Assembly (NCBI GenBank): GCA_022843465.1
Contig: JALHNO010000011.1
Coordinates: forward strand, 111,722 to 175,721
DNA length: 64,000 bases
Source of the DNA: Pseudomonadota bacterium
GTDB lineage: Bacteria > Pseudomonadota > Gammaproteobacteria > Xanthomonadales > Ahniellaceae
Direction of reading: 5' to 3'
A program made the translations under genes and the position numbers. How positions within the stretch are numbered: position 1 is the stretch's first letter; every line of letters begins with the position of its first letter. Below the pieces are notes generated by a model that was not told the DNA's origin, did no database searches, and saw nothing but the letters and a program-made list of their open reading frames with translations. Below, in pieces: positions 47,700 to 62,055 of this stretch.

Positions 47700-48050
47700 T
47701 GTCCCCACCGGGATTGCGTAGAGCGTGGCCCGCCCCGCTGCCCTCGATCTTGCTCGCACCGTTGATCTTGCCCGTGCCCTTGATTTTGTAGCGTGGCTTG
47801 CCGCGCTGCCGTTGATCTCGCTCGCGCCCTTGATCTTGCTCGTGCCGTTGATCTTGCCCGTGCCGTTGATCTTGCTCGTGCCTTTGATTTTGTAGAGCGT
47901 GGCTTGCCGCGCTGCCCTTGATCTTGCTCGCGCCTTTGATCTTGCTCGCGCCTTTGATCTTGCTCGCGCCCTTGATCCTGCCCGTGCCCTTGATCCTGCT
48001 CGTGCCTTTGATCTTGCTCGTGCCGTTGATCTTGCTCCCGCCTTTGTGTG
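47700..48050. repeat. 18-bp minisatellite (CTTGATCTTGCTCGTGCC type)
   Basis: About 15 imperfect copies of an 18-bp unit, interrupted three times by a GTAGAGCGTGGCTTGCCGCGCTGCC palindrome. The same palindrome family occurs at 15192. It encodes alternating Arg/Ala/Lys hexapeptides on the minus strand, but that frame lacks other support. It abuts the DUF488 gene, whose promoter must lie within or beyond the array. No gene lies in 47539-48090. Confidence 0.9.
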
Positions 48051-48090: not shown

Positions 48091-48588
48091 ATGCACACCA
48101 AACCCGCCACGATCTTCACCATCGGCTACGAAGGCCTGAGCCTCGACACCTTCATGGCCCTGCTCGCGGCACACCGCATCGACACCGTGATCGACATCCG
48201 CGAACTCCCGCTCTCACGCAAACCCGGCTTCTCCAAGACCGCGCTTGCGCTTGCTTCGACGGCTCACGGCCACAAATATGTGCACATCGCCAAGCTCGGC
48301 TGCCCGAAACCGGTTCGCGACCAGCACCGCGCCGACAATGACTGGACGCGCTACACCACAGGCTTCCTCAAACACCTCAGCACTCAAAGCCCAGCCATTG
48401 CAGAAGTTTCCGCCCTCGCCGCCAACAAGAATTGCGTGCTGCTCTGCTACGAAGCCGATTTCAACTTCTGCCATCGTTCGATGGTGGCCGATGCCGTTCA
48501 GCGCCAGAGTGGCGCCCGCGTCCATCACATTGTCAAGCCAGTAGCGAAAACAGAGCGCCCTGCAAAGTCTCAGCGGGCTTTTGCTTAG
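48091..48588 (+). CDS. DUF488 family protein
   Basis: A 165-residue DUF488 protein, normal length. Family motifs: TIGYEGLSLDTF near the N terminus, VIDIRELPLSRKPGFSK (about 34-50), and the cysteine-rich CVLLCYEADFNFCHRSMVAD (about 112-131). Biochemical role unknown; members often occur in defence or DNA-modification loci, which fits its position at the edge of this island. The frame is open upstream through the minisatellite, but 48091 is where the conserved sequence starts. Confidence 0.88.
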   Translation: MHTKPATIFTIGYEGLSLDTFMALLAAHRIDTVIDIRELPLSRKPGFSKTALALASTAHGHKYVHIAKLGCPKPVRDQHRADNDWTRYTTGFLKHLSTQSPAIAEVSALAANKNCVLLCYEADFNFCHRSMVADAVQRQSGARVHHIVKPVAKTERPAKSQRAFA

Positions 48589-48669: not shown

Positions 48670-49437
48670 CTACCGCTCCGATTTTCCTTTGGATTCTTCA
48701 CGCCAATTCTCGCGAACCCAAATCCAACCCTCACGCGCGATGACCTCTTTGAACTCGTCGGGCGGCGCGAGGCACTCGCCATTTACAAAATCCAGCGCCG
48801 CCAACAGGCACAGGCAGGCATCAAACTCGTCAGCGTTGCCGTCACAGCGAGCATTCAAACCAGCCAAGCGCCAGTCAATCTTTGCTGCGATTTGCCGCCG
48901 CACTCCGATCTGCTCGGGCAGCTTGTAGCCCTTCGACGGCATACCATGAGCACGCAATGTTGCAGCGGGATACACCTCGATCACGCCGACGCCATTGCCG
49001 CCTGGCGTCCAAACGAGCGGCAGCGGTAGGCGAGTAACCGTGCGGAGTTCATTCAGTACGCTGAGCGCCTCGTGGGCCGCACGAGCGATGCGATCAGCGC
49101 CGACCTCCAGGGGGCTTGCTCTGTAGCGATCTGAGCGCAGTACGATTTCGGTCCGCCGTCGAAACGTCAATTCCTTGCCGACTTCGAAGTGCTGCCCCGC
49201 CGCGTGGCCATGCAATCCGAAGCGAAGACCATCTGGCCAACCCAGGGGCGCGTCTATCGCAAGCAATGCAGGGCCATCGGCTAGAGCGAGCGCCTCGACG
49301 ATGGCGTTGTTGCGCTTGATGGTTCCATTTTGCAGGCATCCCGACTCGATGATCTCTGCTCCCACACCGTTGGTCCGGCCGATTGCATAGCCAAACTTCC
49401 TTCGATCTGACGCCGCATCCAGCCCGATCAGAATCAT
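48670..49437 (-). CDS. DUF429 (predicted RNase H-like nuclease)
   Basis: A 255-residue DUF429 protein with RNase H-like fold features: LIGLDAASD (D7), LLAIDAPLGWP (D62), VIEVYPAA and a C-terminal acidic pair in DEFDACLCLLAAL. These are metal-ligand positions of a nuclease. It is convergent with DUF488. It may be the nuclease arm of the Nmad/NucS neighbourhood or simply a co-located gene. Confidence 0.85.
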   Translation of the reverse strand: MILIGLDAASDRRKFGYAIGRTNGVGAEIIESGCLQNGTIKRNNAIVEALALADGPALLAIDAPLGWPDGLRFGLHGHAAGQHFEVGKELTFRRRTEIVLRSDRYRASPLEVGADRIARAAHEALSVLNELRTVTRLPLPLVWTPGGNGVGVIEVYPAATLRAHGMPSKGYKLPEQIGVRRQIAAKIDWRLAGLNARCDGNADEFDACLCLLAALDFVNGECLAPPDEFKEVIAREGWIWVRENWREESKGKSER

Positions 49438-49461
49438 CCTAACCTACCCAAGGGCTGGAAC

Positions 49462-50529
49462 TCATTCGACAACTTCGCTCGGCACGCAGCGAACCTCGGA
49501 ATTCGGAAATCGACGCAGCAACGCGTTGATCACATCGCCGGTGTCAGAGCCCCACATCTTGGTCAATGAGTAGGTCTTGTCACCGTCATGTAGCAACTCA
49601 GAATCGTCCACGAACCATCTAAAGGCTTCTACCTTCTTTCCCTGAGACTCGCATCGCAAAACGTAGGCCGCCTTGAAGGACTCGCCGTCCAGAACACCAT
49701 CGAACGAAAGCAGGGCACCTGAACGTTTGCCAAGCCCCTCCTGAACTCCCGCCATGGACGCGCCGGCAAGGCGTAAGGATTGGATCACCTGAAGAATTGC
49801 ACGTCGCTTTGGAAGCTGCCGCCAAACCTGCTCGCCAGCAAACACGTCGTATTTCGTAAAATCCCTACCATCCGTCCGCGATGCGTTCTCCTTGATGCGC
49901 TTCTGGCGAAGGCTGACGGTGTACTCGGATGCCTCGGGCAACGGAATGATCTGCTGGATGTCCAACAAGATCTGCCCCGCATTCGAGTAGGGCTTCAGTC
50001 GCACACAGCGGATGTCCAATCCGCGGTCATTCAAGAACAGCACGGTGGTAGTGATCTCGCGGGAGAAGTCCGCCGCCACGAGTACTATGCGCACATCCTG
50101 ACCAAACTGGTCCTCGCGCGCTTCATCCCAATCAAGGAAGCCCAACAGGCGTTGCTCGGCGCTGCTGGCGTCTTCGCCGCGCTGTTCGAGGAAATGTGAG
50201 AACGCTTCTACTACATGAGCAAAGGTCATCGTTGAGATCATCGCGGCATAACGAAGCGCCTGCAGCTCCATATGCCCACCGTCTTCATCGCGCTTGAGTT
50301 CGATCACCACCAGGTTCGCGGCGCGATCGATGGCCAGCAAATCAATGCGCCGCCTGCTGTCTGCCCATGAGCCAAATTCTTCGGCGATTACCAGCAACCC
50401 GGGATCAATCGCGCTGATGCTGGTACAAAGCAGCCGCTGCAGGTCGTTGCGCTCGCGCATACCCAACCGCGAAAACGATGACGAGTCGATCGAATCCAGA
50501 GCGGAATCCTTGACTACATAGAGAGGCAT
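49462..50529 (-). CDS. NucS/DUF91-like PD-(D/E)xK endonuclease
   Basis: A 355-residue protein. Start 50529 (MPLYVVKDS) follows AGCGGAGAAACTTC. Catalytic core: E50, D63 in RRIDLLAIDRAANLVVIELKR and E77-x-K79, the PD-(D/E)xK signature as in NucS/DUF91 nucleases. The C-terminal part (about 190-355) is unassigned; VSLRQKRIKENASR and a later beta region could be a DNA- or partner-binding module. It lies 63 bp after Nmad3, same strand, and probably belongs to the same unit. Confidence 0.82.
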   Translation of the reverse strand: MPLYVVKDSALDSIDSSSFSRLGMRERNDLQRLLCTSISAIDPGLLVIAEEFGSWADSRRRIDLLAIDRAANLVVIELKRDEDGGHMELQALRYAAMISTMTFAHVVEAFSHFLEQRGEDASSAEQRLLGFLDWDEAREDQFGQDVRIVLVAADFSREITTTVLFLNDRGLDIRCVRLKPYSNAGQILLDIQQIIPLPEASEYTVSLRQKRIKENASRTDGRDFTKYDVFAGEQVWRQLPKRRAILQVIQSLRLAGASMAGVQEGLGKRSGALLSFDGVLDGESFKAAYVLRCESQGKKVEAFRWFVDDSELLHDGDKTYSLTKMWGSDTGDVINALLRRFPNSEVRCVPSEVVE

Positions 50530-50592
50530 GAAGTTTCTCCGCTGAACATCATGAAACGCGGGTTGGCTCGACATCCAACCGACCCAGCACTG

Positions 50593-51513
50593 CTAAGCAA
50601 CTTCGACATGCCGCACGTTACTCCGTAGCAAATCATCCAGCCACGGAGAAGCCTCGGGATAGTCCGAAGCCTGCAACACGAACTCCTGACCCTTCGCCGC
50701 AGACCGCAATCGGCAGCGTTCGTCCATCTGTGTCCAGCGCTTCAGGTCGCCGTGGTACGACAGTGGCTTTCGGCCATCGCGGGGCATCAACCAGCCGGGC
50801 AGATCCCATACGCTTCGGCTCGCGTCGGCCGCGGTGAGATTCAGTTCGGACGAGTAGTGGGAAAACCTGCCGCCGCCAGGAATGCCGCTGTGATTTCTGA
50901 ACCTGTCGGTCGCGACGTAGAGCGTGTTGAGAGCGCTCTTGTAGTTCTCTCTATTGAAGACGTGGGGATGATTCGCGATCCATGGATGGTCGCGCAGACA
51001 AGACTCGCGCTCGGTCACGATCGGCAAGAGTTCGTCGATTTGCAGCCACCCGAAGAATGCGTGGCGATCCGGTGCGCCCGGTGAGAAGCGCCACTTCCCA
51101 TCCTGTTGCATGACTTCGCGAAACCAGCCAAAAAACAGAAACACATCCCCGCTGCCGACACCCTGATTTGCCAGATGCCTCTGCGCCGCGTCCGTCTGTC
51201 CCAGCGCAGGACGCCAACCCGGCATCCGATGGCGTGGGGCTCGATCCAGATCAGGGTCGATGTGGACCACGGACCGCAGCGTATGCCGGTCCTCTGCGTT
51301 CTTCCTATGTCCGCTCAGGTCGACCAGCAACTGACCAAAGTCCACGCCTGGCACGTCCATATCCGCCATGCAGAATTTATCGTGCGAATTGGGGATCGGC
51401 AGGTGCAGCAGCCGCCCATCCGGAAGTATCGGACTGGCCATACCGCCATAGGATGAATCAAACCCCTTCCGCGAAAGAACCAGGCGCCAATCGCGATCAC
51501 CGGTCGCAGCCAT
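50593..51513 (-). CDS. Nucleotide modification associated domain 3 (Nmad3) protein
   Basis: A 306-residue member of the Nmad3 family, described from computational analysis of DNA base-modification neighbourhoods (Iyer, Aravind and colleagues). The diagnostic N terminus is VLSRKGFDSSYGG, then PILPDGRLLHLPIPNSHD and, later, DVFLFFGWFRE and HAFFGWLQI. The start at 51513 shares one base with the Nmad2 stop (TGATG), so the two are translationally coupled. Its reaction is unknown. Confidence 0.85.
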   Translation of the reverse strand: MAATGDRDWRLVLSRKGFDSSYGGMASPILPDGRLLHLPIPNSHDKFCMADMDVPGVDFGQLLVDLSGHRKNAEDRHTLRSVVHIDPDLDRAPRHRMPGWRPALGQTDAAQRHLANQGVGSGDVFLFFGWFREVMQQDGKWRFSPGAPDRHAFFGWLQIDELLPIVTERESCLRDHPWIANHPHVFNRENYKSALNTLYVATDRFRNHSGIPGGGRFSHYSSELNLTAADASRSVWDLPGWLMPRDGRKPLSYHGDLKRWTQMDERCRLRSAAKGQEFVLQASDYPEASPWLDDLLRSNVRHVEVA

Positions 51514-52169
51514 CAAGCGCACCCTTTTCCGACCTTGTTCGACTTCGCCCAAGTTTCCGCCGACCCGATCGTCAGTGCCTGATCAGCAGGCGCACCGTGC
51601 ACACCCGGCGGCCATGAACGCAGCCATTGTTCGATCAGCACAGCATTCTTCGGCCCGTGGCCCTTGTTGACCGCAAAGCCGACGGCGCTGTGCACCAGAT
51701 GGATCAATTCGTTGGGAATCGGCACGCTATTGACACCGAAGTACCAGAAGCGATCGCTGAGCAGCACATTGCGACCACTGGTGTCCTGCCCGAGTGATTT
51801 CTCGCCATGCACGTGATTGGGTACATAGAGCAACTCACCCTTCCCATCCGGCCGATAGATATTGTCCGGGAACGGCGATGCCCCCGGCCGTCGATTGCGA
51901 AAGCGCTTGTCTTCCCAATACTGGCCGAGTGTCAGCACCTCGGTCACCTGCATCACATAGGTCACCTCGCCGGCCTTGCGGCTGCGAAACCCGATCACCC
52001 AATCGCCGCGCTCGGCGGAGGCGCGAATCCTGGGCTTGCAGATCGCGAGCGAGCACACGCCATCAAACGGCCTGGGCGCGGTGCCTGCGTCGTAGCGCAC
52101 GACATAGCGAAACACGCGAGGAACAACAGCGGTCTGCTTCGGAATGGCATCCGTCAACGGCTGGGTCAT
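51513..52169 (-). CDS. Nucleotide modification associated domain 2 (Nmad2) protein
   Basis: A 218-residue member of the Nmad2 family. Typical features are YVVRYDAGTAPRPF at about 22-35, CSLAICKPRIR (39-49), GDWVIGFRS (55-63) and the later sequence VLLSDRFWYFG. Pairing with Nmad3 is the expected arrangement. Together with the NucS-like nuclease downstream it may form a module that makes, reads or cuts DNA with a modified base; no sugar transferase, TET/JBP or 7-deazaguanine gene is in the window to say which base. Confidence 0.85.
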   Translation of the reverse strand: MTQPLTDAIPKQTAVVPRVFRYVVRYDAGTAPRPFDGVCSLAICKPRIRASAERGDWVIGFRSRKAGEVTYVMQVTEVLTLGQYWEDKRFRNRRPGASPFPDNIYRPDGKGELLYVPNHVHGEKSLGQDTSGRNVLLSDRFWYFGVNSVPIPNELIHLVHSAVGFAVNKGHGPKNAVLIEQWLRSWPPGVHGAPADQALTIGSAETWAKSNKVGKGCA

Positions 52170-52427
52170 GTTGGTTCCCTGTTTCGAGACCGCTGCCAGG
52201 CTGCTTCGAATTCGGCCGCAGAGCTACGGTGCCCGACTATCCCCAATATTTCCCCCTAAATCAATGGATGGCAATATTCAGTAGTCGGTGAACAACTGCA
52301 ACGAAAATTTCCACAACTCACCAGAGATATCTGTTGCTACGGCGGTCAAGCCACGGCAGCGCACAGTTGCCGAAAAAGTTCATCGTCGTACATTGCCAAG
52401 CCGCGCTGTAGCCAGTAGCGTCCCGGC

Positions 52428-52570
52428 ATGAGCAAGACCAAACCCACCCGCAAGCCCAAACCAAAGAGTCCACCGCCACGATTGGCTTCGAAGCCAAGCT
52501 CTGGCTCACCGCCGACAAGCTGCGCAACAACATGGACGCCGCCGAGTACAAGCACGTCGTGCTCGGCCTG
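52428..52570 (+). pseudogene. 5' remnant of an hsdM (type I methyltransferase) gene
   Basis: ATG 52428 reads MSKTKPTRKPKPKSP, then a one-base shift near 52470 brings in TIGFEAKLWLTADKLRNNMD and AAEYKHVVLGL, the N terminus of a type I methyltransferase (HsdM). The normal FLKYISD that should follow is lost. It is on the plus strand. The intact hsdM at 55595 is a different, unrelated N-terminal type, so this is a relic of another system. Confidence 0.85.
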
Positions 52571-52918
52571 AACTTGTCCAATTGCCGCTCCGCCTGCTTC
52601 GCGGAACATCGCGTAAGACCCGCTGCGGCGCACGGCTTGTCTGCGCACTAGGCGTTGCAAGGCGAAGACAAGCTGGTCGTACCCGCGCCTCAGAGCCAAG
52701 CAACCGGCCCTCGCCGCCACCGACAGTTGCGCGTATCGCAGCGGTCAAGAGGACCGCGGTCACCTAGCGCAGCTTGGTGTCCCGGAGCGACCAAGAGGCA
52801 AGTCATCCTGTGGCCAAGCCGAGCTATAGTGGCCGCTTGCGGTGGCAGCTGATAGATTCGGACGAATCTGATTGAATACGACTTCCTTCTGCGGGCACGT
52901 TCGCCGCTGGAGCGACTG
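52571..52918. promoter_or_regulatory. Gap ahead of the hsd operon with an operator-like palindrome
   Basis: No intact gene. AGATTCG-GA-CGAATCT (52854-52869) is a near-perfect inverted repeat with 7-base arms, 50 bp before the small HTH frame and about 240 bp before hsdR. It could be the binding site of that HTH protein or of another regulator. Confidence 0.3.
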
Positions 52919-53134
52919 ATGACTGAGCCCTGGGTGTACGTGGAAAAATTCACCGAGCATTTGGACGTCACTCTCGATTCCACGTACCGCTGGATCGACG
53001 GCAAGCGCCTGCCCGTGCGTTGCAGGGGAAGGTTGCAGGGATTAAAATTCTCAGGCAGGAATACGAGGGTGCGTCACGTTGCTGTCGACGAAGAGCAGGG
53101 CCGCTCGACCGATGAACCCGTCGGACATGGATAA
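52919..53134 (+). CDS. HTH_17/excisionase-like small protein, probably damaged
   Basis: A 71-residue frame. WVYVEKFTEHLDVTLDSTYRWIDGKRLPV matches, over about 30 residues, the helix-turn-helix of excisionase-type (MerR-like) DNA-binding proteins, often found ahead of type I restriction genes. After LPV the usual HRVGRLWKF is replaced by CRGRLQGLKF and similarity fades, so a frameshift or decay is likely. It overlaps the hsdR start. Confidence 0.5.
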   Translation: MTEPWVYVEKFTEHLDVTLDSTYRWIDGKRLPVRCRGRLQGLKFSGRNTRVRHVAVDEEQGRSTDEPVGHG

Positions 53135-55559
53135 GTACCAGCTCAGCGAGCGCGACATCTGCACCAAGTTCATCACGCCGGCCATCGTGCGCGCGGGCTG
53201 GCAGCAGCATCAGTTCCGCGAGGAAGTGAATCTCACTGATGGCCGCGTCATGGTGCGTGGCAAACTTGCGGCCCGCATCAAGAATCCCGATGCCAAAGGT
53301 GGCCCGAAGCGTGCCGACTTCGTTCTGTACGCTCGGCCAAACGTACCGATTGCGGTGGTCGAGGCGAAGCAGGCGCGTTTCTCGGCCGGCCATGGTATGC
53401 AGCAGGCACTGGCCTATGCCGAAATGCTGGATGCGCCCTTTGCCATCAGTAGCAATGGCGATGGTTTCCTGATCCACGACCGCACCGGCATCAGCCAGCC
53501 GGTTGAACGTGAGGTCAAACTCGGCGAATTTCCTTCCCTTGATGATCTTTGGCCGCTTTACCAGCAGTGGAAAGGCTTGGCAGCGCCCGAAGCGGTCCAG
53601 CTCATCGAACAACCGTTCTACACCGATGGCAGCGGCCGCGAACCGCGCTACTACCAGCGCGTGGCCATCAACCGCGCCGTCGAGGCCATCGCCAAGGGCC
53701 AGCAACGCGTGCTGTTGGTCATGGCCACCGGCACCGGCAAGACGTACACCGCATTCCAGATCATCTGGCGTATGTGGAAGGCCAAGGCCAAGAAACGCAT
53801 CTTGTTCCTGGCGGACCGCAACATCCTCGTCGATCAGACCATGCAGCAAGACTTCGCCCCCTTTGGCGAGGTCATGCACAAGGTCACCAATCGCGAAGTC
53901 AAGAAGAACTACGAAATCTACCTTGCCCTTTATCAGGCGGTCACCGGCAAGGAGGAATGGAAGCAGATCTACAGGCAGTTCCCGGCCGATTTTTTCGATC
54001 TGGTCGTTGTCGACGAATGCCACCGCGGCAGTGCGGCGGACGACTCGGCCTGGCGCGAGGTGCTCGACTATTTCAGCAGCGCCACCCATCTGGGTCTGAC
54101 CGCCACGCCCAAGGAAACCAAGGAAGCCAACAACATCACCTACTTTGGCGACCCGGTCTACACCTACTCGCTCAAGCAAGGCATCGAAGACGGATTCCTC
54201 GCACCATACAAGGTGATCCGCATCGCCACCGATGTCGACGCGGTCGGCTATACGCCCGAGCAGGGCAAGGTCGACAAGCTCGGCCAGGCGGTCGAGCAGC
54301 GCCAATACAACACCAAGGATTTCGACAGAACACTCGTTCTGGAAAAGCGCACCAGACTCGTCGCCAGCAAGGTCTGGGAATACCTCAAGGCCACCGACCC
54401 GATGGCCAAGACCATTGTTTTTTGCGACGACCAGGACCACGCCGAACGGATGCGGCAAGAGCTGGTCAAGCTGATCCCGGCCGCAGCCAGCAACCGCCGC
54501 TATGTCATGCGTATCACTGGCGACGACAACGAAGGCAAAGCCCAGCTCTCGTACTTCATCGACAACGACGAGCCGTATCCCGTCATCGCCACAACCTCCA
54601 AGCTGCTGACCACTGGCGTCGATGCCAAGACCTGCAAGCTGATCGTGCTGGACCAGACCATCAACTCGATGACCGAGTTCAAGCAGATCATCGGTCGCGG
54701 CACCCGGCTGCGCGAGGACTACCAGAAGCTCTACTTCACCATCATGGACTTCAAGGGTGCGACACGCCTGTTCGCCGACCCGGATTTCGACGGTGAGCCG
54801 GTGGTGATCTACGAACCCAAGCCCGACGACCCGGTGGTGCCGCCAAACGAGCCAAATCCACCCGGCATTGGCGAGCCCGAACCGCCACCGTACGGACCCG
54901 GCGCAACGGGCGGTGATGACACCGGCGGAGATACCGGCGGCGGCAGTGGTGGTGAAGGCCGCACCAAGTACGTGATCGACGACGTGAACGTGCGCGTGGC
55001 CGTTGAGCGATCGCAATACCTGGATGCCAACGGCAAGCTCATCACCGAAGACCTCCGAGTACTGCTGAAGGATGACATTCGAAAGGCGTTGCAGGCGGAA
55101 TTCGGAACGCTGACTGACTTCCTGCGTCGCTGGAACAGTGCAGAGCGCAAGCAAGCCGTACTGGAGGAGCTGGCCGAGCACGGCGTGCCGCTCGAAATCC
55201 TGCAACAGGCAGTAGCCAACGGCAGCGAGCTGGATGCGTTCGATCTGGTCGCTCACGTGGCCTTCGATCAGAAGCCGCTCACTCGCCGCGAGCGCGCGAA
55301 CAGCGTCAAGAAGGGCGATGTGTTCGGCAAGTACGGCGAGCAGGCGCGTGCCGTGCTTGAAGCCCTGCTCGACAAGTTTGCCGATCACGGTGTGCAAGAC
55401 ATCGAAGACGCCAAGGTGCTCGAACTACCGCCGTTCGACCAATTCGGCAGCAAGACCCAGATTCGACGCGGCATCTTCGGCGGCGTCGAGCAATACACCC
55501 AAGCCGTGCACGAACTCGAACGTGCGCTCTATGACGTAGCCGAACAAAAGCAGGCCTGA
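53112..55559 (+). CDS. hsdR: Type I restriction enzyme R subunit
   Basis: An 815-residue HsdR, the translocating and cutting subunit. N-terminal nuclease PD-(D/E)xK: D69 and E84-x-K86 in ADFVLYARPNVPIAVVEAK. Helicase motifs follow: ATGTGKT (205-211), DECHRG (301-306), GLTATP, and TINSMTEFKQIIGRGTRLRED. A proline/glycine-rich linker (about 570-620) leads to a C-terminal assembly domain. ATG 53112 (MNPSD) is chosen because the family sequence YQLSERDICTKFI starts soon after; ATG 53127 is an alternative. First gene of hsdRMS; 35 bp to hsdM. Confidence 0.95.
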   Translation: MNPSDMDKYQLSERDICTKFITPAIVRAGWQQHQFREEVNLTDGRVMVRGKLAARIKNPDAKGGPKRADFVLYARPNVPIAVVEAKQARFSAGHGMQQALAYAEMLDAPFAISSNGDGFLIHDRTGISQPVEREVKLGEFPSLDDLWPLYQQWKGLAAPEAVQLIEQPFYTDGSGREPRYYQRVAINRAVEAIAKGQQRVLLVMATGTGKTYTAFQIIWRMWKAKAKKRILFLADRNILVDQTMQQDFAPFGEVMHKVTNREVKKNYEIYLALYQAVTGKEEWKQIYRQFPADFFDLVVVDECHRGSAADDSAWREVLDYFSSATHLGLTATPKETKEANNITYFGDPVYTYSLKQGIEDGFLAPYKVIRIATDVDAVGYTPEQGKVDKLGQAVEQRQYNTKDFDRTLVLEKRTRLVASKVWEYLKATDPMAKTIVFCDDQDHAERMRQELVKLIPAAASNRRYVMRITGDDNEGKAQLSYFIDNDEPYPVIATTSKLLTTGVDAKTCKLIVLDQTINSMTEFKQIIGRGTRLREDYQKLYFTIMDFKGATRLFADPDFDGEPVVIYEPKPDDPVVPPNEPNPPGIGEPEPPPYGPGATGGDDTGGDTGGGSGGEGRTKYVIDDVNVRVAVERSQYLDANGKLITEDLRVLLKDDIRKALQAEFGTLTDFLRRWNSAERKQAVLEELAEHGVPLEILQQAVANGSELDAFDLVAHVAFDQKPLTRRERANSVKKGDVFGKYGEQARAVLEALLDKFADHGVQDIEDAKVLELPPFDQFGSKTQIRRGIFGGVEQYTQAVHELERALYDVAEQKQA

Positions 55560-55594: not shown

Positions 55595-57373
55595 ATGAAT
55601 CTCAGCAGCACCATCAAGTCCATTCAGGACATCATGCGCAAAGACGACGGCGTCGACGGTGATGCCCAACGCCTCGGCCAGCTCACGTGGATGCTGTTCC
55701 TCAAAGTGTTCGACCAGCGCGAGGAAGAGTGGGAGGACGACAACGCCACCTATCAATCGCCCCTGCCCGAGCGCTACCGCTGGCGCAATTGGGCGGCCTA
55801 CAAAGCCGACGCCGAGGGCAAGAAAAAGCCGCAGATCGCCGGTAGTGAACTGATCGGCTTCGTCAACAACGAGTTGTTCCCGGCGCTGAAGGACCAGATC
55901 GACGCCGACCGCAGCCCGCAACACAAGGTCATCCGCGAAATCTTCCGCGACGCCAACAACTACATGAAGTCCGGCCCGCAGATGCTGGCGGTGATCGAGA
56001 AGCTGGAAGAGGCCATCAACTTCCACGACTTCAAAACTCGCGCCAGCCTGGGCGATGTCTACGAGCAAATGCTCAACGACCTGCGCGGAGCAGGCAACGC
56101 GGGCGAGTTCTACACCCCCCGAGCCATCACCGCCTTTATGGTGGACCGGGTGAATCCGCGTCTGGACAGGCGCGAAACCGTGCTGGACCCGGCCTGCGGC
56201 ACCGGCGGCTTCTTGACCGCCGCCATTGACCACTTCCGCAACCAGCTCAGCACCAAGTCCAGCGCCGACGACAAGCGCGCCATCGAAGAATTGATTCACG
56301 GCATCGAGAAGAAGCAGCTTCCGCACCTGCTGTGCACCACCAACATGCTGCTGCACGGCATCGACGTGCCCAGCCAGATCGAGCACAAGAACACGCTGGG
56401 CGTCGGCTGGAACGAGTGGAACGCCAATGACAAGGTCGATTGCCTGATCACCAATCCACCCTTCGGCGGCTATGAAGACGACACCGTCGGCGGCGACTAC
56501 CCAGCCGACCTGCGCACCCGTGAAACCGCCGATATGTTCATGGCGCTGATCATCAAGAAGTTACTGAAGGAAAACGGCCGCGCCGCCGTGGTACTGCCCG
56601 ATGGCTTTCTATTTGGCGACGGCATCAAGGGCACGCTGAAAAAGCTGCTGCTGCGCGACTGCAAGCTGCATACCATCATCCGCCTGCCCAAGGGCGTGTT
56701 TGCGCCCTACACCACCATCAAGACCAATCTGCTGTTCTTCACCAAGGGCACACTGGTGGACGATGGCACAGAACATTTCCACACCGACACCATCTGGTTC
56801 TACGAACACCCCTACCCGGTGGGCTACAAGAGCTATTCCAAAACCAAACCAATCCGTTTGGAAGAATTCAAGCCCGAGCAGGAATGGTGGGGCGACGAGG
56901 CCAACGACTTCGCCGACCGCGTGGAGAACGAATTCGCCTGGAGGGTTGATTTCAAATCCAGGCACGAACAGGCCGAAACCGCCGCAAAGCCGCACTGGCA
57001 ACACGCCGAAGACCTGAACAACCAGGCCGCCGCGCTGGAAGGCGAAGCCAGCGAGTTGCGCAAGAGCCTGGTCGGCACCACCGACGCAGCCTACCGCGAA
57101 AAAATCGACGCCCAGATCGCCGAGCTGCGCGCCAAGGCCGAACCGCTGCGCCTGCAAGCACGTGACGCACAGGCGGCGGGCGATCGCCTCTATTGGCCGA
57201 TCTTCAACCTCGACATCAAGAACCCCAACGCACCGGAGGAAGAAACCCACGACCCCGACCTGCTGCTGGAGAAATTCAAGAATTTGTTGGGCCAGATTGA
57301 AGAAACCGAGAACCAGCTCAAGAGCGAACTGGCCGCCGCACTGGCGCATCACTTCGTCGGCGAGGAGGCCTGA
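55595..57373 (+). CDS. hsdM: Type I restriction enzyme M subunit (N6-adenine methyltransferase)
   Basis: A 592-residue HsdM. HsdM_N helical domain (about 1-130); the methyltransferase domain has SAM-binding motif I VLDPACGTGGF (196-206) and catalytic NPPFGG (287-292), which methylates adenine N6. C-terminal coiled-coil-rich region (about 450-590). It works with HsdS and HsdR. The stop overlaps the hsdS start as TGATG at 57371. Confidence 0.96.
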   Translation: MNLSSTIKSIQDIMRKDDGVDGDAQRLGQLTWMLFLKVFDQREEEWEDDNATYQSPLPERYRWRNWAAYKADAEGKKKPQIAGSELIGFVNNELFPALKDQIDADRSPQHKVIREIFRDANNYMKSGPQMLAVIEKLEEAINFHDFKTRASLGDVYEQMLNDLRGAGNAGEFYTPRAITAFMVDRVNPRLDRRETVLDPACGTGGFLTAAIDHFRNQLSTKSSADDKRAIEELIHGIEKKQLPHLLCTTNMLLHGIDVPSQIEHKNTLGVGWNEWNANDKVDCLITNPPFGGYEDDTVGGDYPADLRTRETADMFMALIIKKLLKENGRAAVVLPDGFLFGDGIKGTLKKLLLRDCKLHTIIRLPKGVFAPYTTIKTNLLFFTKGTLVDDGTEHFHTDTIWFYEHPYPVGYKSYSKTKPIRLEEFKPEQEWWGDEANDFADRVENEFAWRVDFKSRHEQAETAAKPHWQHAEDLNNQAAALEGEASELRKSLVGTTDAAYREKIDAQIAELRAKAEPLRLQARDAQAAGDRLYWPIFNLDIKNPNAPEEETHDPDLLLEKFKNLLGQIEETENQLKSELAAALAHHFVGEEA

Positions 57374-59370
57374 TGGATGCGCAGCAATTCATCGCGGAGT
57401 TTGGGTACATCGCGCAAGCGCCGAACGGCATCAAGAAGCTGCGAGAGCTGGTTCTCGCGCTAGCCGTGCAAGGCCGCCTCCTCCAACAGCTGCCTGGCGA
57501 GCAGGCTGCAGCAATACTGGAGACGACGCGCAGAGAGCGAGAGTACCTAATCGCCTCCGGCGCGCTGCGTTCTCCGAAGCCTCTCCCGGCAATCACCGAT
57601 AAAGATCGCGCGCACGCAGTACCTGCGAACTGGTCCTGGATTCGTTTCGGTGAGATTGCGCTGCACAACTCCGGGAAGACACTGGACTCGGTTCGAAACA
57701 GTGGTCATCCCCGTCGATACATCACGACGTCGAATCTCTATTGGGGCCGCTTCGACCTGAGCAGCATCCGGCAAATGCTCATCCGTGATGAGGAGCTAGA
57801 GAAGTGCACCGCACGGAAAGGTGATCTCCTTATCTGCGAAGGAGGAGAGGCCGGCAGGGCCGCCGTGTGGACCTCCGATGAAGAGGTCTGTTTTCAGAAC
57901 CATGTTCATCGAGCGAGGTTCCTTGGCAAGATCAATCCGATCTACGCCTATCGCTTCTTTGAGAAGCTGAACATGACCGGAGAGATCAACCAGCATCGCA
58001 AGGGCATTGGCATATCAAACATGTCGAGCAAGGCGCTTGCGATGATTCCGTTCCCGCTGCCGCCATTAGCGGAGCAGGATCGCATCGTTGCCAAAGTCGA
58101 CGAGCTGATGGCCCTTTGCGACACGCTGGAAGCACAGCAGCAGGCCCGACGCAAACTGCAAAACAATCTGCGCCAGTCCACCCTGCAAGCCGTCGCCAGC
58201 GCCACCAGCCCGCACGAACTGCAGAGCACATGGATGCGCCTGGCGGACAACTTCGGGCAGCTGTTTCACGCACCGGAGGATGTCGCTGCTTTCAAGGGCT
58301 TGGTTCTCGACTTGGCTGTGTCTGGCGAGTTGCTTGACATTGAACATCGACATGCTGCTACTGGCGCCGACTTGCTCGATGCGATTGCGGCGAAACGTAT
58401 TGAATGGTCTATGACATCTGAGGAGCAAGAGCAAAAAGAAGCGTTGGCGATGCTAAGAAAGCTCCGTACTCAGCAAGTGAACACTCCCGAGAATCAATTG
58501 CCCGAACACTGGGCATGGGCATCACTGCTTGAAGTTTCGCAAGTAATTATTGATTGCGACCACAAGACGCCAGCCTACTCGGTTAGCGGAATTCACCTGA
58601 TTCGTACCACCGACATTCGCAATGGTGAAATGCGGCTTGATGCCACCAAAAAAGTTTCCGAGGAGAGCTACCTCGCTCGCTCAAGACGATTGACCCCCAG
58701 GTCCGGCGACATATTTTTCACGCGTGAAGCACCGATGGGAGAAGCCGCCGTAGTTCCCGCCGGCCAGGTCGTTTGCCTTGGTCAGCGGCTTATGCTAATC
58801 AGGCTTTTCAGTCAGCTGTTTAGCAACAGATTTCTTGTCTACGCAATTCAAAGTCCGGGCTTTCAAAAGCGACTGCAGGCATCTGCCGTCGGCATGACGG
58901 TGAAGCACATAAATGTTGGCGATGTCGAGAATCTTGCGCTTCCGACACCGCCAAAGGCTGAGCAAGATCGAATTGTAGCCATCGTTGATGAGCTATTTCG
59001 CATGTGCGACCAGTACTCGGACCTGCTCTCTCGAAAGCAGCGAATTGCAACCAATCTTGCTGCGAGCGCCGTGGCCACGCTCACTGGCATTGCCATCGAA
59101 CAAGAAGAGGAACCCATGAAGGCCCCACAAACCGAATTGATCGCCCCGCTCCGCTTAGGCACCGCTCCGGATATCAAGGCCCAGGCGCCGCTGGCAACCA
59201 TTCTGGCCCGCCACAACGGTGAAGTCGGTGCCAAGGACTTGTGGCAGCGCTTCGGTGGGGAGATTGACGCGTTCTATGCGCAGCTCAAAACCGAGGTGGC
59301 GCACGGCTGGATTCTGGAGCCTGCAACGGCCGAAGTGCGCGAAAAGCCGGCCGACGCGGTAGGCGCCTGA
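57373..59370 (+). CDS. hsdS: Type I restriction enzyme specificity subunit with C-terminal extension
   Basis: A 665-residue HsdS, longer than the usual 400-450. Two target-recognition domains (about 60-225 and 365-530) are each followed by a conserved helix: LPPLAEQDRIVAKVDELMAL (about 230-250) and AEQDRIVAIVDELFRMCDQ (about 533-552). Residues from about 580 (IEQEEEPMKAPQTEL to the end) form an extra domain with ILARHNGEVGAKDLWQRFGG. Recognised DNA sequence cannot be read out by eye. Two bases after its stop the ATPase gene starts. Confidence 0.94.
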   Translation: MDAQQFIAEFGYIAQAPNGIKKLRELVLALAVQGRLLQQLPGEQAAAILETTRREREYLIASGALRSPKPLPAITDKDRAHAVPANWSWIRFGEIALHNSGKTLDSVRNSGHPRRYITTSNLYWGRFDLSSIRQMLIRDEELEKCTARKGDLLICEGGEAGRAAVWTSDEEVCFQNHVHRARFLGKINPIYAYRFFEKLNMTGEINQHRKGIGISNMSSKALAMIPFPLPPLAEQDRIVAKVDELMALCDTLEAQQQARRKLQNNLRQSTLQAVASATSPHELQSTWMRLADNFGQLFHAPEDVAAFKGLVLDLAVSGELLDIEHRHAATGADLLDAIAAKRIEWSMTSEEQEQKEALAMLRKLRTQQVNTPENQLPEHWAWASLLEVSQVIIDCDHKTPAYSVSGIHLIRTTDIRNGEMRLDATKKVSEESYLARSRRLTPRSGDIFFTREAPMGEAAVVPAGQVVCLGQRLMLIRLFSQLFSNRFLVYAIQSPGFQKRLQASAVGMTVKHINVGDVENLALPTPPKAEQDRIVAIVDELFRMCDQYSDLLSRKQRIATNLAASAVATLTGIAIEQEEEPMKAPQTELIAPLRLGTAPDIKAQAPLATILARHNGEVGAKDLWQRFGGEIDAFYAQLKTEVAHGWILEPATAEVREKPADAVGA

Positions 59371-59371
59371 C

Positions 59372-61201
59372 ATGCAGCTGCAGCGCATCCGCATCCCAGC
59401 CTTCCGCAATCTGCGCGAGCTGGACATCACCTTCGATACGCACTTGCAGCCTGCTGCGGGCGCGCCAAATGATGCCCAGCCAAAGCCCATCCGCAGCCAC
59501 GCGCTGATCGGCCAGAACGGCACCGGCAAGTCGAACCTGATCGAAGCGCTGATCACGATCTTCCGCGACATCGATCTGGACCGCGAAGCAGCCTTCGATT
59601 ACACGCTGGAATACAGCATTCGCGGCCACACGGTGCTCATCGAAGCAGATACCGCCAATCAGAAACGCCCGTATGTATGGGTGGATGGCGACCGCGTCAG
59701 CCAGGAGTACCTGACCAAAAACGACCCGCCCGGCAAAGTGGACCCCGACCAGCGTCGGGGGCCGCGCTTACTGCCGACACACATCTTTGCGTACTACTCG
59801 GGGCGCAACGAACGCATCGAGGTTTTGTTTCAGGAGCACCAGCGCCGCTTCAACCAACGGCAGGAGATCACTACGGACGAAGTACTGCCTGAGCATTTGC
59901 TGGAAAACTTTACCGGCTCGGATGCCGATATTCGCGCAATCGAAGAAGCCAAACGCCGTCGCGAATCGCGGCTGAAACAGGCGGGCGACGACCGACTGCG
60001 CCGACTGTTCTATTGCCGCGGCGGCCATAGTCAACTGGTCCTGCTGGCCTGCCTGCTTTCCGACGACCCCGTATTCCAGAAGGTGCTCAAGAACCTGCAC
60101 ATAGAATCGCTGGAATCGGCGTTGTTCGTACTGAAGGAGCCACACCGCCTGCGCGAGAAGCGCCGTGGCGGCAAGTTTGACGAGCAGGAACTCAACGTTG
60201 GTGACCCGCGCTTTTGGTACGCCCGCGGCAATGTGGTCAGTGAATTCCTCGACAAGCTCTGGCAAGTAGCCTGGGCGCCCATCGAGCAGGAGGCGACCAA
60301 GCAGATAGACTTTCGTGGGCGCACTGAAAAGCAGAAGCAGCTGTACTTGTATGTGCCCAGCCACGACAAGCTGAAGCGTTTGGGTGAACTGGTCGGCGGC
60401 ACCGACAGCTTCTTCCGCTACGCCGAAGGCGCGTACATCGGCGACCTGATCGACGAAGTTCGCATTACCGTCAAGAAGCGAGACGAACACGGCGGCAAAG
60501 TGAGTTTTACCCAGCTATCCGAAGGCGAGCTGCAAATGCTGACCGTGCTGGGCCTGATGCGCATTACTCGCGAAGACCACTGCCTGTTCCTGCTCGACGA
60601 GCCAGACACCCACCTGAACCCGATTTGGAAACTGCGCTACTTCGATGACATCGAAGGCGTGCTCGGAGACACCCAAACCGGAGAATTCGGCGTCGGCGCG
60701 CACGGGTCCGGGTCCTACGGCGCGTCCTCAGGCCAGTCCCAGATCCTGATCACCACGCACGACCCCATGATGGTAGGCAGCCTGAAGCGCGAGCAGGTTC
60801 GCATCCTGCGCCGAGATGGCGAACGCACCGAGGTGGATGTGCCCGATGAACACCCGCAGGGCATGGGCGTGACGGGCTTGCTCAAGAGCGAGCTCTTCGG
60901 CTTGTCGTCCACGCTGGACAGTGAAACCGAGCGCCGCTTGTTCCGGCGCAACGAGTTGTTCGTGAAGCAGCCACGAACGGCGGAGGAAGAAACCGAATTG
61001 AGCCGCCTGTCTGCCGAGTTGGCCGACCTGGGTTTCTCCACCGCAGACTTTCGTGACCCGGATTACGCATTGTTCGTGCGAAAGATGGCGCAGCACCGTC
61101 GTTTCCGCAGACCATCGCTCACGCCAGCGGAGCAGGCCGAGCAGGACGCCATTGCCGATTCCATCATTGGTGAAATCCTGCGCGAGGAGGACGGCGAGTG
61201 A
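59372..61201 (+). CDS. PtuA-like AAA/ABC ATPase (Septu-type)
   Basis: A 609-residue ABC-fold ATPase of the OLD/RecF/PtuA type. Walker A GQNGTGKS (47-54), ABC signature LSEGE (382-386), Walker B LFLLDEPDTH (405-414) and switch H463 in ITTHDP. An HNH nuclease gene follows with a 4-nt overlap (GTGA), the Septu arrangement in which PtuA senses infection and PtuB cuts nucleic acid. It lies 1 base after hsdS, so it is expressed with the type I system. Assignment to Septu, as opposed to another ATPase-HNH family (for example a retron-type pair), is by arrangement. Confidence 0.87.
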   Translation: MQLQRIRIPAFRNLRELDITFDTHLQPAAGAPNDAQPKPIRSHALIGQNGTGKSNLIEALITIFRDIDLDREAAFDYTLEYSIRGHTVLIEADTANQKRPYVWVDGDRVSQEYLTKNDPPGKVDPDQRRGPRLLPTHIFAYYSGRNERIEVLFQEHQRRFNQRQEITTDEVLPEHLLENFTGSDADIRAIEEAKRRRESRLKQAGDDRLRRLFYCRGGHSQLVLLACLLSDDPVFQKVLKNLHIESLESALFVLKEPHRLREKRRGGKFDEQELNVGDPRFWYARGNVVSEFLDKLWQVAWAPIEQEATKQIDFRGRTEKQKQLYLYVPSHDKLKRLGELVGGTDSFFRYAEGAYIGDLIDEVRITVKKRDEHGGKVSFTQLSEGELQMLTVLGLMRITREDHCLFLLDEPDTHLNPIWKLRYFDDIEGVLGDTQTGEFGVGAHGSGSYGASSGQSQILITTHDPMMVGSLKREQVRILRRDGERTEVDVPDEHPQGMGVTGLLKSELFGLSSTLDSETERRLFRRNELFVKQPRTAEEETELSRLSAELADLGFSTADFRDPDYALFVRKMAQHRRFRRPSLTPAEQAEQDAIADSIIGEILREEDGE

Positions 61202-62055
61202 TCTGGATCGACCTTGAACACAAGCGGCCCACCGATTCCGATATCCCAAACTGGGTGCCATGGACACAAGCCCAGTGGGATGCATGGTTGGCGAGGTCCA
61301 CCCAACTGGTTGCCGATTTGGCCGCCTTGGATGCGGCGGGGAAGCGCGATGATCGCAATGCCCTGATTGATGCCAATAGCGACCATTGGGGCGCCTTGAA
61401 GGAATGGCTTTTGGCCTTGTCGGCAGGAAAATGCTGGTTCTCAGAAGTGCGCGAGCTGTACTCGCACTATGACGTCGAGCATTTCCGTCCAAAGAAAGAG
61501 GCCAAGTCTTTGGATGCCAGCCTGCGCGACGGCTACTGGTGGCTCGCATTCGATTACATGAATTTCCGGGTGTGCGGCAATGTCGGCAACCGCAAGAAGG
61601 GCGGCTGGTTTCCTCTGAAGGATGGCTCGCTGTGCTCATCCCATGCACAGCCCTGCGAGGAATCCGAAACACGCTACTTGCTTGACCCGATCGATGACGA
61701 TGACGTCGCTCTGATTGCCTTCGACGAGGAAGGCAAGGTCATTCCTATGCCTGGCTCTTCTGCATGGGAGCAAGAACGCGTCAACGAGACCGTGAAGCGA
61801 CTCAAGCTCAATGAGCATGCGCCGTTGGCAGAGGCCCGCCGCAAGGTGTGGCAGAAGGTGGACAGGTTGATCGATGATTTCGCCAATGCCAAAGCCCGCT
61901 GTGGCGCAGGCAACAACCCGGGAGCCAAAGCGAAACTGACTGAGGTTCGTGCGCGCGCACGCGAGATGACCAGCCCAGCGGCCGAACTGTCGGCGGTCGC
62001 CCGATGGTGCCTGCTAGTTCGCAATGATCCACGGCTTTCCAGATTGGTAGGGTGA
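61198..62055 (+). CDS. PtuB-like HNH nuclease (Septu-type)
   Basis: A 285-residue HNH protein with GTG start overlapping the ATPase stop. Core: GKCWFSEVRE (77-86), DVEHFRPKK (92-100) and FDYMNFRVCGN (118-128), the pattern of PtuB-type HNH nucleases. The usual CxxC is CxxS here (C79, S82), so the structural zinc pair may be altered. The C-terminal half (about 150-285) is helical and probably binds the ATPase. Confidence 0.85.
   Translation: MIWIDLEHKRPTDSDIPNWVPWTQAQWDAWLARSTQLVADLAALDAAGKRDDRNALIDANSDHWGALKEWLLALSAGKCWFSEVRELYSHYDVEHFRPKKEAKSLDASLRDGYWWLAFDYMNFRVCGNVGNRKKGGWFPLKDGSLCSSHAQPCEESETRYLLDPIDDDDVALIAFDEEGKVIPMPGSSAWEQERVNETVKRLKLNEHAPLAEARRKVWQKVDRLIDDFANAKARCGAGNNPGAKAKLTEVRARAREMTSPAAELSAVARWCLLVRNDPRLSRLVG

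Follow-up and report, generated by a model that had tools for sequence, protein, structure and literature searches.

The question raised by this locus is whether the predicted readers Nmad2 and Nmad3 work together with the nuclease genes that follow them, or whether the two readers form a unit of their own. The locus was analysed within a window of 64,000 nucleotides (contig JALHNO010000011.1 of assembly GCA_022843465.1, Ahniellaceae), and all coordinates of window features are positions in this stretch. The Nmad families, 'nucleotide modification associated domains' (PF18753 and PF18754), owe their name to the genes that neighbour them. In the window Nmad2 and Nmad3 head a row of four genes on the minus strand, which an earlier note on this DNA regarded as a possible autonomous module for reading or cutting modified DNA. 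Comparison with other genomes revealed that Nmad2-Nmad3 is the only conserved unit of the row, with a coupling far above chance. Judged by their predicted folds, the two proteins are probably readers of DNA, RNA or nucleotides that carry chemical alterations. The row consists of the following genes:

51513..52169, minus strand: Nmad2, 218 amino acids, first gene of the pair (Pfam PF18753, 7.8e-49, 166.4 bits, cut-off 26.1).
50593..51513, minus strand: Nmad3, 306 amino acids, second gene of the pair (Pfam PF18754, 1.4e-71, 241.4 bits, cut-off 27).
49462..50529, minus strand: DUF91/NucS_C-like PD-(D/E)xK nuclease, 355 amino acids (PADLOC PDC-S11, 3.7e-131).
48670..49437, minus strand: DUF429 RNase H-like protein, 255 amino acids (PF04250, 2.1e-17; PADLOC PDC-S44, 6.7e-14).

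Nmad2 and Nmad3 overlap by 1 base, with the ATG of Nmad3 lying inside a TGATG. For the nuclease gene the most probable start is 50529 (MPLYVV, in agreement with its homologues), 63 bp past Nmad3; a gap of 24 bp separates it from the DUF429 gene, the last of the row. The overlap, both gaps and a DUF488 gene facing the row were thus all found again as described earlier. Terminator-like sites are rarer than expected by chance, none between the genes rises above chance, and a single transcript for the four genes is plausible. When 10 genomes of the family, the source genome among them, were compared at the DNA level, no second copy of the row came to light.

Loci with Nmad3 were collected from GTDB genomes using an alignment as query; a single-protein query returned none. 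The best 80 of at least 472 loci were analysed. Percentages derived from them are biased, since these are the most similar loci and the sample is rich in Halomonadaceae. Nmad2 was found within 500 bp of Nmad3 in 20 of the 80 loci, on the same strand in all 20. Nmad2 comes first in 15 of them and Nmad3 in the other 5 (3 Burkholderiaceae and 2 other proteobacteria). The paired loci span Pseudomonadota, Actinomycetota, Planctomycetota, Nitrospirota, Acidobacteriota and further phyla. Nmad3 is rare and patchily distributed (7 of 369 genomes of the class) and a search of 398 genomes from the phylum found Nmad2 in just 6, so that adjacency by chance is negligible. The nucleases do not share in this conservation. 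The earlier note had called for a search for Nmad2-Nmad3-DUF91 neighbours and had named beforehand, as the outcome that would speak against its module, pairs mostly free of nucleases. Precisely this was found: most pairs lack them, and DUF91 is present in none of the 80 Nmad3 loci. DUF429 lies near Nmad3 in a single locus (L062), 2.2 kb off, and DUF488 adjoins it in one (L039). A modification sensor and a nuclease, either fused or joined in a conserved complex, were accordingly not recovered from these loci, in which no nuclease is a recurrent neighbour.

Other genes were encountered beside Nmad3 as well. A family without Pfam match (family X, two members scanned) adjoins Nmad3 in four loci (L014:8861-9493, L157:5602-6219, L156:2778-3350 and L068:7245-7823) and overlaps it in two; it is possibly another Nmad3 partner. 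The idea that family X is a divergent Nmad2 was dropped, as no profile supported it. In a halomonad, a DUF488 gene (L039:7585-8019) directly precedes and overlaps Nmad3. DUF488 was rejected as a fifth member of the row, as it is convergent in the window and adjoins Nmad3 in this one other locus only. Pairs were also seen on two predicted viral contigs (L155 and L158). The pair of L158 adjoins portal- and protease-like genes, and prophages may therefore carry the pair.

AlphaFold2 models were obtained for Nmad3 (mean predicted local distance difference test score, pLDDT, 91.6; 84 sequences) and Nmad2 (mean pLDDT 86.0; 26 sequences). When the Nmad3 model was compared with solved structures, 468 chains aligned, and all 34 listed matches with Z of at least 2 are PUA-like, with a best Z of 7.4. 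They comprise EVE proteins, N-terminal domains of McrB (one with m5C DNA), THYN1 with 5mC DNA and ASCH proteins. Also among the 34 are DrmA and the N-terminal domain of ATP sulfurylase, both of which we take to be PUA-like. The match to MJECL36 (Z 7.4) covers 139 of its 145 residues, and the N-terminal domain of TgMcrB matched with Z 6.6; since these scores are middling, the PUA-like assignment of Nmad3 is held at the level of the fold. Nmad3 is predicted to be an EVE/PUA-like protein with a large insertion. The best matches of the Nmad2 model were ASCH, EVE and YTH proteins (Foldseek E 0.06; VIA Z up to 7.8, below 8, with a root-mean-square deviation near 4), which suggests a PUA-like protein of the ASCH/EVE/YTH type. 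Such scores can come from a common arrangement, and the PUA-like case is for this reason built on the coherence of the match lists. Near-invariant aromatic residues were listed for both families, among them Y22, Y71, Y84 and Y143 of Nmad2 and F127, W236 and F278 of Nmad3. Nmad2 and Nmad3 were also considered as homologues of each other; this was rejected, as profile comparison gave one short strand match with a probability of 6%. Against viral models, Foldseek turned up some ASCH proteins and, as a single fair match, a protein without a name.

A second partner of Nmad2 was found on plasmids. Relatives of Nmad2 turned up in 18 plasmid records. In 11 of the 13 that were examined (L143, L144, L145, L147 and L159-L165) a TIR gene lies directly upstream of Nmad2; the TIR of L162 is weakly supported (23% identity, no Pfam hit). 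In the remaining two, L142 and L146, neither TIR nor Nmad3 is present. All four TIR proteins scanned, three from plasmids and one from a genome (L133), matched ThsB_TIR. Several TIR-Nmad2 loci continue with MazG_C and UDG genes, or with genes for thymidylate synthase (TS) and a kinase of the 5-hydroxymethyldeoxyuridine (5-hmdU) type. When 41 Nmad2 sequences were placed in a tree, the partner tracked the clade, with 5 changes against 16.4 in shuffles, and the Nmad2 of the window stood beside an Nmad3-linked Nmad2 (L013). The coupling of Nmad2 to either TIR or Nmad3 suggests that bacteria connect one and the same sensor to different responses. A broader proposal is that Nmad2 is an exchangeable immune sensor for modified bases or nucleotides. 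One branch would have it joined to a ThsB-type TIR, another to Nmad3 as a second PUA-like reader, and effectors, DUF91 for example, would be picked up locally. This proposal is rather doubtful at present; if true, the Nmad2-Nmad3 pair would be a class of two-pocket reader not described before.

The PD-(D/E)xK nuclease itself is probably active, because the catalytic residues D63, E77 and K79 of its D...ExK motif, together with E51 and Q90, are invariant over 13 aligned sequences. It was not accepted as a NucS orthologue, as both the Pfam NucS_C match (21.8 bits, cut-off 24) and the NCBIfam NucS match (27.6 bits, cut-off 216) stay below threshold. A search of 299 genomes from the phylum found homologues in 18. 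Such homologues stand next to type I (L127, L131, L132) and type III (L129) restriction-modification (RM) systems, BREX (L167, L169) and DarT-DarG (L124). The description that fits the nuclease best is that of an accessory which roams among type I, type III, BREX and DarTG loci and is no fixed part of the pair. In one of these loci (L124:6429-9194) DarT and a gene for a DarG-like macrodomain immediately precede a PDC-S11 nuclease. The DUF429 family is RNase H-like; nuclease activity is predicted for its members, which are usually not mobile (PMC3985635). Searches of solved structures by sequence returned nothing relevant for DUF91 or DUF429.

The row lies in a defence island. A divergent type I RM operon, HsdR-HsdM-HsdS, begins 0.9 kb upstream of it and is followed by the Septu genes PtuA and PtuB. 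The features around the row are listed below; none of the genes among them belongs to the unit:

48094..48588 (approximate), plus strand: DUF488 protein, convergent with the row (PF04343, 4.5e-26; PADLOC PDC-M19A, 2.3e-34).
52245..52274, minus strand: promoter-like match upstream of Nmad2 (9/12), weak and at chance level, the sole match of the promoter scan.
53079-55559, plus strand: HsdR (PADLOC match).
55595-57373, plus strand: HsdM, an N6-adenine methylase (PADLOC match).
57373-59370, plus strand: HsdS (PADLOC match).
59372-61201, plus strand: PtuA (PADLOC match).
61198-62055, plus strand: PtuB (PADLOC match).

The GC content of the RM and Septu island, including the row, is 0.57-0.61, against 0.65 further left in the window. 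Between nmad2 and hsdR lies a remnant of an HsdM N-terminus (52490-52600, plus strand; 57% identity over 37 residues), and the same stretch is present in relatives of the family at 81-86% DNA identity. A helix-turn-helix remnant, recognised by eye, was also noted in the gap before hsdR (about 52900-53078, plus strand). These remnants indicate a defence island with turnover. The earlier remark that no recognised modifying enzyme accompanies the Nmad genes holds within the row; with HsdR-HsdM-HsdS beside it, a modifying enzyme, HsdM, is close by. On the other side of the row a tandem repeat array (47739-48046, periods of 18 and 106 bp) overlaps the 5' end of the DUF488 frame, and short related stretches occur at other places in the genome.

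PUA-superfamily sensors flip or bind modified bases, and their combination with PD-(D/E)xK or HNH nucleases is well established in modification-dependent restriction (PMC7897488). Nmad2 and Nmad3 would, by analogy, be a two-part sensor for non-standard bases, with the co-directional PD-(D/E)xK nuclease as the best candidate effector. This reading is adopted tentatively, at somewhat less than an even chance. Nmad2 and Nmad3 would be coupled in translation and would act jointly on non-standard bases, each PUA-like protein offering a pocket for a flipped or free modified nucleobase, as in EVE, YTH and ASCH domains. The pair would flag nucleic acid, or nucleotides, as foreign or altered and would in this way direct an effector to them. 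Here the effector would most likely be the PD-(D/E)xK nuclease, whose gene lies 63 bp further on in what looks like one transcript and was probably acquired locally; this nuclease would cut the flagged DNA. DUF429 may be a second nuclease or a passenger. Formation of a complex, base binding, hand-over to the nuclease and an anti-phage function are all parts that this analogy would supply, and the functional link between pair and nuclease may be local to this genome and recently assembled. Several results weigh against this picture. In 60 of the 80 Nmad3 loci no Nmad2 was detectable, many of these loci having housekeeping-like surroundings. No effector or third gene recurs among the neighbours of the pairs, which are scattered helix-turn-helix, toxin-antitoxin, AbiEii-like, transposon and housekeeping genes. 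Close relatives of Nmad2 or Nmad3 were absent from the phage records searched. The structural matches reach a middling level, with Z of 7-8 and a best Foldseek E of 0.06, and solved-structure searches by sequence profile gave neither a PUA protein nor any other relative for Nmad2 or Nmad3. To the absence of DUF91 from the Nmad3 loci is added the absence of Nmad genes from all DUF91 neighbourhoods examined.

A strong rival, and a quite possible one, holds that the pair works on its own as a sensor or regulator, or as a unit processing bases or nucleotides, and that the two nuclease genes are unrelated island neighbours. The lack of DUF91 in the Nmad3 loci, the dispersal of DUF91 homologues over type I, type III, BREX and DarTG loci, the lack of a recurrent third gene by the pairs and the turnover witnessed by the HsdM remnant before hsdR all fit this explanation. 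However, pair and nucleases share one strand, with gaps of only 63 and 24 bp and no terminator above chance between them, and another pair (L007) likewise has a same-strand PD-(D/E)xK gene (YhcG_C) just upstream. The gene surroundings of solo Nmad3 bring in a housekeeping role, e.g. the reading or repair of modified or damaged bases or free nucleotides, in which defence would not be the primary function. In several gammaproteobacteria solo Nmad3 lies beside metA/HAD/thioesterase or epmA genes, and in L064 and five similar Granulosicoccaceae-type loci it directly follows a predicted base-excision DNA glycosylase gene (all named by eye). Furthermore, N4-acetylcytidine is the substrate of an ASCH protein, the amidohydrolase YqfB (PMC6972931). 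The patchy distribution of Nmad3, the location of some pairs near transposase, integrase or toxin-antitoxin genes and the TIR-Nmad2 pairs on plasmids nevertheless make it unlikely that defence is not the primary function. A genuine four-gene autonomous module for modification-dependent restriction would agree with the compact same-strand row, its two predicted nucleases and the readers upstream, but this arrangement was kept in none of the Nmad3 loci and in no examined DUF91 locus, which renders it highly improbable. Of the autonomous module proposed earlier the reading part is retained, in line with the predicted PUA-like folds, the recurrent pair and the TIR-Nmad2 loci, while the autonomous cutting module is given up as a general unit, the nucleases not being conserved.

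The core of interest is the predicted PUA-like reader pair and the partner exchange of Nmad2, not the four-gene row. Assignment as PUA-like readers makes Nmad2 and Nmad3 a testable class of modified-base sensors, and the partner exchange bears on how immune systems detect phages with hypermodified DNA. The literature searched held no relevant paper on Nmad2 or Nmad3 and no mention of the paired unit, and a 2020 survey of EVE and DCD domains does not mention Nmad. Compared with the Pfam Nmad families, the window proteins are clear members, whereas their fold and likely reader role are absent from the papers searched. The nuclease, DUF429 and DUF488 are direct profile matches of PADLOC PDC-S11, PDC-S44 and PDC-M19A, which PADLOC lists as candidates only. 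In Thoeris a ThsB TIR works with ThsA; a TIR of the ThsB type is the partner of plasmid Nmad2, but the row has neither, and matches to TIR and ThsA were absent among the window genes scanned with Pfam and PADLOC. DefensePredictor places NMAD among predicted defence domains, and thymidylate synthase, 5-hmdU kinase and NMAD domains are named together in the legend of a figure on its validated systems (PMC13092281). The association of NMAD with defence is common to both studies, and TS/HMUDK/MazG/UDG genes accompany TIR-Nmad2 on the plasmids examined here; the NMAD family in question is not readable from that text, which describes no Nmad3 or DUF91 partner. A further comparison is with modification-dependent restriction enzymes that have PUA-superfamily sensors, namely the EVE-HNH enzyme VcaM4I and McrBC of T. 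gammatolerans, whose McrB sensor is of the YTH type. The row differs from these in having separate reader and nuclease genes and two readers where they have one, in lacking an NTPase motor and in a nuclease link that is not conserved; it resembles them in the predicted PUA-like reader beside a PD-(D/E)xK nuclease and in its defence-island setting.

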